From Phoenix dactylifera (taxonomy: Eukaryota; Streptophyta; Magnoliopsida; Arecales; Arecaceae), in the NCBI RefSeq assembly GCF_009389715.1, contig NW_024068246.1, forward strand, positions 62,001-126,000: 64,000 nt of DNA. Direction: 5' to 3'. The translations under genes and the position numbers were made by a program. Shown here one piece after another: positions 1,438 to 61,915 of this stretch (position 1 is its first letter; every line of letters begins with the position of its first letter). The notes under the pieces are model-generated. The model ran no database searches and had not been told where the DNA came from. It was given only the letters and a program-made list of their open reading frames with translations.

Positions 1438-4400
1438 AGTCCAGATGATTTGTGGGCAATCCATTCCCGACCTGTCTTTCCAAAGCCCCACAAAAGGAAT
1501 AACTCTTCGTGGATAGCTATAGAGAAGGTGTGTCATATGTAACTTATGTTTAATCATTTATTAATGCAGCCACATTGGATTTGTCATAGACAGATACCAT
1601 GATAGTCTGCTTTTCATTGCATCTCTAACATAATACTTGAAGATATACTCTTTGAAGCCATCCTGAAATACTGAATGGTCTGTGCTTTTCCCCTAACTGA
1701 TTAGCCAGTTTATCAAATAATATAAATGCCTCTACATGCCATTTGAGATTTTTCCTCATTCCCTCACCTCATCACTTAGTTTTGATTGGCAGAAAGTATA
1801 TATATATAAAACTCAGTTCAAGCTTAGCAGGTCTTATCGAGAATTGAACCCACTTGCTTTATGCAAATACTAACAATAACCTGAAACATATATGTGAGTA
1901 TGAGGTGTATGCAAAATATTGGTAATGATATCAACAGATATAGTTGGGCCATTCTATTTTTATTGATGCATGAATGTACATGCTTGTTATATTAAACCTC
2001 GACAATAAAAATTAAATAAAGTGAATTAGCAACACAAAGACCAGAGTTTGATATGAGAATATATATACTAATAAGTGCTGTTGAAAGATGATCTCAAAAT
2101 TAAACTATATGCCATTGCTAACCTTCCATATATTTTACCTGTCTCTACTTGCGATATTTTCAAAATTTATTTTTCTTTTAATAGAATCTAGTATAAAAAA
2201 ATCAAAATGATACATGAGGAAAAAAGCTTTTTTTAAAAAGAAAACAGAACATTTTGAGAAACCACGATGAGCTAGAAAAAGTCATCCGTAAAGGCGACTG
2301 TGTTACATCTTCCCAAATAAACCTAATAGAAACTTTTTCAAAAACTTGAGAAGATAGACTTTCATGCATGGATTGAAATACTGCTGCATACTGGCTGTAG
2401 CATACCGGCAAAGTATTGGTGCCAGTAGAGCTCTTATCATACTGTACCTATGTTGGTGCAACATCTTAATTCTGCTGTACCCTCAGCAACAGCCACAACA
2501 TATGTAGATATGGTAGTGTATCATACTGGTAATGTTACCAGTACCTGTACTTTAAACCTCTTTCATGAATTTTCTCAAATATCAATAAGTTTCCAAATGA
2601 GACTTTTGTATTGCTAAGCAAGCTTGGGCACATGTCTGTCCCTGTTGAGATACCTCTAGTATTTTTCTAAACAAAAAAGGACACAAAAGGGTCTTAAGAA
2701 TTCTTTTCTAACATGAAACTATATTTCCAAAGGCAGCTCATCCATCATATCCCTAAACCATCAGTAGAGATTTTATTGTACCATAATCTTGACATGCTCT
2801 ACAGTAAGCTCTCTCTTCTACCTTAAGGATTTCTAATATATATTAGATAGTGATGTATGGGTCACCATGATATTGATAATCAATCTACAGCAAAGCATGC
2901 AGAGACATTCAGCTTTTGATATCAATGTTGCCCTTAGGACTTTAGTTATAAGGAGGGTGATCCCGTTGGCACCATAATTTTTCATAAAGTATTAATTATT
3001 TCGAAGACTATAGCATTCAATGGAGTAGTCGTGCAATATTCATTCCGTTTCTCTTTGAAACTTGAAAAAGGAAATATAGGAGCTGATGCATGATCTTGTT
3101 AGAACACGAAATTGTTTTATGCTGTAAGACTTACAACCTTTAAGCAAGATACTACACTAGGATTACTGGTAATTACAAATGTTATAATTCATGTACAATT
3201 CATTCAAACAATACAAAAATGCATTAAGAATAACACAATAAGCATGCATATGTTGTATGGATGCTATAGCACTGTTACGCCCCTGGCCCGAGATCATGAG
3301 CCAAGGGTCGTGGCAACCGCCACATACTCATAGAAAACTCTTCCTACAAGCATGCAAGGCATCTCACCACGATATTACAAAGCAAACAATAGAATAAATT
3401 TAAAATAACTAATGTTTATATTTAATTTAAATAACTAGAACCAACCACAATACTCAAAAGATCTTACATCAAACTCTCATCAAATTCTGATTTAAATTTA
3501 AGATATCAAATTTTGCCTCTAGCCACTCTCTCAATCATAACCCCGTGCCATCTTAGTTCTCATAATTTGTAAAAACAGTAAGATATGGAATAATGAGCTA
3601 GACAGCCTAAAAAGCAATGAACACTTTAGCTAGATAAATCAAGCAATACAATAATAATATTATGCTAAAATTAAGCATGCAAAGTATATCAATTCAAAAC
3701 CAAATCTCAACACTATCCAGTCATTTCAAAATTCAAATTTTGTTCATAAATTAATTCCTTTCAAAACAATCAAGTTTATCTCGACAACTATGAACTATGA
3801 CCATATATATATCCTATGGTTGGGTCAGAATATGAGCTCATTAAAGTGCCAACGTATAACCCCCACTGGCAGGGTATCGATATGCCAACATATAACTTTC
3901 ACTGGCAGTATGTCAATATGCCAACGTATAACCCCCGCTGGCAGGATGTCGATATGCCAACGTATAACTCTCACTAATAGGATGTCGATATACCAGCAAA
4001 TAACTACCACTGGTGGGCTGTCGATACATAGTCTAGCTGCAAGTCTACATTCGTTTCGAAGCAAAACTCGTTTTCTCAAAGCATATTTATTGTTTCAAAT
4101 TCTAAGATAAAATTATACGACATCGAAATCAATCGAACATAATATATACCGAAATCAATATGTTCAATTAAGAATCATAGAATATTCTAGAAAGAGGGAT
4201 ATATAATAATAAAATACTATGCATCAAGTTCATAAATCAAGAATAATTCAATTAAAAAAATATTTATAATTTGTCAATAAATCTAAAAAAGAGTTACATT
4301 ACTTACCATATAAGCGAAACCAAACTACAAGTCCAAATAATTTTGAAAATTTCTCTCAAAATCTAAGATCGTTGGAAGTCAAGAGGAGAAGAAGAAGGAA

Positions 4401-61915: not shown

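Follow-up and report, generated by a model that had tools for sequence, protein, structure and literature searches.

Among plant hAT MITEs, elements with CAAGGTT-type, CAAGGTTT-like ends are known to occur. In the Ac/Ds system of maize, hexamers that recur within the terminal 200 bp are bound by the Ac transposase (PMC3260210). The elements, Ds1 in particular, duplicate 8 bp of their target, have short repeats at their termini with recurring words just inside, and exist as small non-autonomous copies alongside decayed ones that carry a transposase (PMC3260210). In the case of Hermes, BED domains bind subterminal repeats, and targets of the form nTnnnnAn are preferred (PMC10368747). Mar, a hAT MITE of Drosophila, likewise shows 8-bp duplications, and its full-length counterpart survives as a relic whose transposase has decayed (PMC3517528). 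The elements analyzed here, which lie in a single stretch of 64,000 bases (hereafter the window), are of this ordinary, known kind, with counterparts in maize Ds and Drosophila Mar. They probably form a group of plant hAT MITEs whose recurring word, GTACC/GGTAC, is unusual. Because their end type is linked to a transposase relic found in the same 64 kb, the ends can be used to look for source elements; MITEs near or within plant genes are common, and the finding is otherwise ordinary. Judged from titles and the beginnings of abstracts, none of the literature matches listed describes a plant family with this terminus.

The original prediction comprised seven small elements, with complete copies of 176-195 bp and two of exactly 185 bp. 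All seven are present in the window sequence, six of them complete (193, 186, 185, 185, 195 and 176 bp). E1 occupies positions 2367..2559 of the plus strand (193 bp) and is bordered by an 8/8 duplication of CTTTCATG (2359-2366 and 2560-2567). E2 (9768..9898, plus strand) lacks its 5' part, and its flanks agree at 3/8 positions at the 9763 border, with no recognizable target duplication. E5 (21662..21847, plus strand, 186 bp) is flanked by ATTTGGAG at 8/8; E6 (22753..22937, plus strand, 185 bp) by ATCAGTTG/ATCTGTTG at 7/8; E7 (38113..38297, minus strand, 185 bp) by CTCTACAT/TTTTACAT at 6/8; E8 (52406..52600, minus strand, 195 bp, 33% GC) by CTTCTTAG at 8/8; and E9 (60806..60981, plus strand, 176 bp), the left end of which has decayed, by ATCTTTTT/ATCTTTTC at 7/8.

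These small elements display the features of MITEs, being short (176-195 bp) and non-coding, with inverted ends and a duplicated target, and the list of open reading frames contains no stop-free stretch of at least 90 residues within any of them. Over the first 12 bases, 6 to 9 positions are identical between the left and right ends in E5-E9, and a single one in E1. The tips read CA..TG at both ends in four of the six complete elements, while those of E1 are CA..CT; the right end of E1 does not carry the claimed terminus, its border having been placed from its duplication, and the fit is poor at both ends of E1 and at the left end of E9. The CpG observed/expected ratio reaches 0.94-1.45 in E2 and E5-E9, which is unusual for diverged elements, and amounts to 0.12 in E1 and 0.41 in the window. 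Relative to the roughly 400 bp given for Ds1 (PMC3260210), the small elements are about half as long. The Ac hexamer AAACGG is absent from all seven small elements and from the counted parts of the larger element described below (it occurs once in the element nested within the latter and 12 times in the window), and the small elements are therefore not Ds elements.

Six flanking duplications of 8 bp had been claimed, and re-reading them returned 8/8, 8/8, 8/8, 7/8, 7/8 and 6/8. When random sites of the window were compared at matching spacings with the borders fixed, 8/8 matches arose at a rate of 0.00008, matches of at least 7 at 0.001 and of at least 6 at 0.008, and when both borders are free to shift by 3 bases the rates become 0.0017, 0.023 and 0.17, respectively. 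As a cross-pair control, the left flanks were compared with the right flanks of other elements, giving 56 pairs from eight elements, including E2 and the larger element. With fixed borders, 6/8 was reached by one of the 56 pairs and never exceeded, whereas with free borders 15 of the 56 reached 6 and none reached 7. Taken as a set, the duplications lie far beyond chance, and the 8/8 and 7/8 cases hold, while a single 6/8 match taken alone is weak and proves little. Within the target, seven of the eight duplications have T at position 2 in both copies, as in the nTnnnnAn preference of Hermes, and the remaining one has it in a single copy; position 7 is A in only three of the eight. The Buster target nnnTAnnn of Mar, an element that has another terminus (PMC3517528), does not apply here, as T4-A5 occurs in one of the eight duplications (E7).

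The seven small elements, which together cover 1,256 of the 64,000 bases, contain 39 of the 103 GTACC/GGTAC words of the window, three of them in E1 and two in E5. GTACCG is found 37 times in the window where 3.8 occurrences are expected, a count reached by none of 100 shuffles. The 12-base terminus, allowing up to three mismatches, is found 23 times against 15.4 expected, which 2 of 100 shuffles reach, so that it is weak alone. To compare whole elements, pairwise scores were set against 200 shuffles of six-base blocks, which keep most words; with 36 pairs tested, chance alone should yield isolated values of 1 or 2 of 200. All ten pairs among E2, E6, E7, E8 and E9 beat every one of the 200 block shuffles. 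In leave-one-out searches with a profile of the other four members, each of these elements was recovered (E2, E 2.2e-23; E6, 2.3e-35; E7, 3.6e-33; E8, 9.5e-12; E9, 7.9e-35), and the five-member profile detected five copies in the 64 kb, matching E2 from model position 56 onward (E 4.8e-36), while the reversed window and ten shuffled windows yielded no match at E values up to 10. Pairwise identity among the five is 52-72% (mean 63%). Judged by these comparisons, E2, E6, E7, E8 and E9 are one diverged, collinear, GTACC-rich family (the core family), of which E8 is the most diverged member. An alternative is that low complexity or growth by slippage accounts for the GTACC stretches, with the ends and flank repeats arising by chance. 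The words are indeed short and repeated, and the terminus taken by itself is reached by 2 of 100 shuffles, but collinearity that beats word-keeping block shuffles, the leave-one-out profile matches and the matching flanks make this alternative extremely improbable.

The common interior in fixed order that had been described for all seven elements is therefore borne out for these five, by profile and by block shuffles, and does not extend to E1 and E5; in place of a single family of seven, the comparisons point to five core copies, a doubtful E1, and E5, which lies nearest to the larger element. E1 is likened to E2 more closely than any of 200 block shuffles, and its scores against E6, E7, E8 and E9 are reached by 6, 23, 12 and 36 shuffles, respectively, which leaves its membership doubtful and its attachment weak. 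The closest relatives of E5 are the two ends of the larger element (0 and 1 of 200 block shuffles), and its scores against the core are reached by 1 (E6), 7 (E9), 13 (E2), 64 (E7) and 69 (E8) of 200. Likeness also appears between E7 and the right end of the larger element and between E2 and its left end (0/200 each), suggesting that the core and these ends are not wholly separate and share some likeness. Conservation of the GTACC columns in the core is only slightly raised (0.82 vs 0.77), a difference reached by 12 of 186 rotations. A weak profile match at 27926-27986 (E 0.036), perhaps a decayed fragment, is not counted with the core. Folding was compared with 200 shuffles for E5, E6, E7 and E9: all 200 were beaten by E6 (z -4.31), E9 (z -3.05) and E5 (z -5.62), and a general foldback structure was rejected on account of E7 (z -0.56, with 51 of the 200 shuffles as good).

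The original inventory was incomplete in that a larger element, here called BIG (10356..13613, minus strand), and the element nested within it had been missed. BIG is read as the relic of a transposase-bearing hAT element, and its ends at 10356 and 13613 form an 18-bp inverted repeat (89%) of the same end type as in the small elements. Its flanks GCTGTGCG/GTTGTGTG agree at 6/8, both differences being C/T, and match better than those of any other of the 14 pairs of facing end-like sites spaced 60 to 6000 bp apart. In the piece submitted to Pfam (12750..13050, minus strand), a broken hAT C-terminal dimerization domain, approximate in extent and with at least one stop within the match, was detected as PF05699 (E 7.8e-6, 26 bits, cut-off 21.4); with the whole BIG frame as query, the match was retained at E 1.3e-4 and 22.1 bits. 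Pfam searches of BIG in its three minus-strand frames identified no catalytic domain, and the search for a solved structure matching the transposase piece returned none. This hAT domain is the sole direct link in the window between the end type and a hAT transposase, and BIG, whose copy is broken and C-terminal, is the only same-end relative in which one was found, none having been found for the core family. Through the ends of BIG and its hAT domain, the end type is tied to hAT transposons by evidence from within the window, and the claim that the small elements are short and non-coding, carry ends of hAT type and are flanked by 8-bp duplications is accordingly supported and, through the shared ends and PF05699 of BIG, strengthened.

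E5, although only 186 bp long, resembles the left and the right end of BIG alike: in BLAST comparisons it matches the left end at 82% over 33 bp (E 7.5e-4) and, close to the right end, in two short segments (E 0.009). The best reading is that E5, as a small element, would either derive from the group to which BIG belongs or be closely related to it. Beyond the tips, the left and right ends of BIG are not clearly alike, their score being reached by 14 of 200 shuffles. These observations bear on whether BIG is one element or whether small elements at 10356-11420 and approximately 13400-13613 happen to surround an unrelated hAT fragment. The composite origin would account for flanks that agree at just 6/8, for ends that are poorly alike past their tips (14/200 shuffles), and for the low-GC stretch at 11420-11760 (25% GC), which may be foreign. 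We regard it as unlikely, given that the 18-bp inverted ends sit at the exact tips, that the flank match ranks first of the 14 facing pairs with differences that are both C/T, and that both BIG-end likenesses are united in the 186-bp E5. As a separate observation on BIG as a single element, the 25% GC stretch may reflect another insertion or untranslated sequence.

That the MITEs derive from another cut-and-paste superfamily (Mutator, PIF/Harbinger, mariner or CACTA) is very unlikely in view of the 8-bp duplications, set against the duplication lengths known for those superfamilies, and of the hAT domain in an element with the same ends, even though the ends are short and decayed and several superfamilies give rise to plant MITEs (PMC12595863).

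Inside BIG lies a 962-bp element (10393..11354, no strand assigned) with TAGGGGTG ends, which form inverted repeats of 24 nt (92%), and with GGGTCG words, 19 of the 26 in the window being located within it. It is flanked by an 8/8 duplication of GTACCGGT, placed exactly at both tips; this word occurs four times in the window, which makes the match slightly less striking. By its ends and its duplication, and without protein support, the nested element appears to be of a second, hAT-like type. It may resemble the nDart1-type hAT elements, which have TAGGGGTG-like ends and GGGTCG-like words. Its position also gives a relative date: because the TAGGGGTG-type element interrupts BIG, it must have inserted later than BIG.

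On the basis of these sequence comparisons, the small elements are very probably non-autonomous hAT MITEs moved in trans by transposases of the kind that BIG carries. Under the proposed mechanism, a larger relative with similar ends would make a hAT transposase, which would bind the terminal repeats and probably also the repeated words just inside the ends, GTACC/GGTAC in the case of the core family. The element would then be excised and integrated elsewhere through cuts staggered by 8 bases, giving rise to the 8-bp duplications. BIG would represent a decayed remnant of such a transposase-bearing element, and the core family (E2, E6-E9) would share its end type, with a transposase source of its own not found in the window. 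We infer both the movement in trans and the identity of the transposase that moved the core family, and the GTACC/GGTAC words are possible candidates for transposase-binding repeats. Standing against the assignment of the small elements to hAT MITEs is the location of the transposase piece within BIG and not within any core element. Further points against it are the weakness of the 6/8 flanks of BIG taken alone, the scarcity of A at target position 7, the slight conservation of the GTACC columns, the poorly fitting ends of E1 and left end of E9, and the failure to find a catalytic domain in the minus frames of BIG.

The divergence of the copies can be compared with that of their duplications. 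The four complete core copies differ from one another at 38% of aligned sites, whereas mismatches fall at 4 of the 32 positions of their duplications (binomial 0.0014); for the six complete small elements together with BIG, 6 of 56 duplication positions differ (5e-6), a comparison that borrows the 38% of the core for non-core elements. Spread in a single burst from one master copy would make both divergences alike, and several diverged sources are thereby favored. Together with the CpG richness of the core (0.94-1.45 vs 0.41 in the window), this difference raises the possibility, which we hold tentatively and with some doubt, that the core spread from several long-diverged lineages in which GTACC/GGTAC words were kept because the transposase needs them, and not as a one-master burst. 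Two biases act in favor of the several-source interpretation: flanks are recognized as duplications by their good match, and the rate of change may be higher in CpG-rich elements than in the sequence around them.

With respect to gene context, the elements had been assigned to introns of three genes and to one spacer, an assignment only partly borne out, with E7 in an intron and E8 probably in a spacer. Domain matches in the window include PPR, mTERF, MATE and GDI, and also MIP1/DUF547; from these genes, together with the phototropin-like exons described below, the host is taken to be a plant. E7 is the only element with matches to one and the same Pfam domain on either side, with GDI-domain exons on the minus strand at 40293-41069 and at approximately 37.8 kb, and its position between them places it in an intron. 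E8 probably lies in the spacer between a MATE gene and a MIP1/DUF547 gene. E2 and BIG are located between the open stretches 9398-9592 and 15175-15336, which we take, from their motifs, to be exons of a phototropin-like kinase. Pfam returned no match in the plus frames of the first 9 kb or for a 28-residue exon piece, a single weak match obtained when the first 15 kb were read in three plus-strand frames was taken as unrelated, and a kinase match at approximately 20.6 kb fell below its cut-off. A tRNA match (4887-4959, minus strand, 54.2 bits) is located upstream of the plus-strand phototropin-like exons. In a GC-richer part of the window, an RNase H-like domain (PF13456, 41739-42074, plus strand, E 1.9e-5) is probably a retroelement remnant. 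Finally, direct duplications of approximately 75-150 bp, 75-99% identical and adjacent or nearby, are present at 22450-22606, 54337-54516, 15522-15833, 3847-4026 and 42745-42953.
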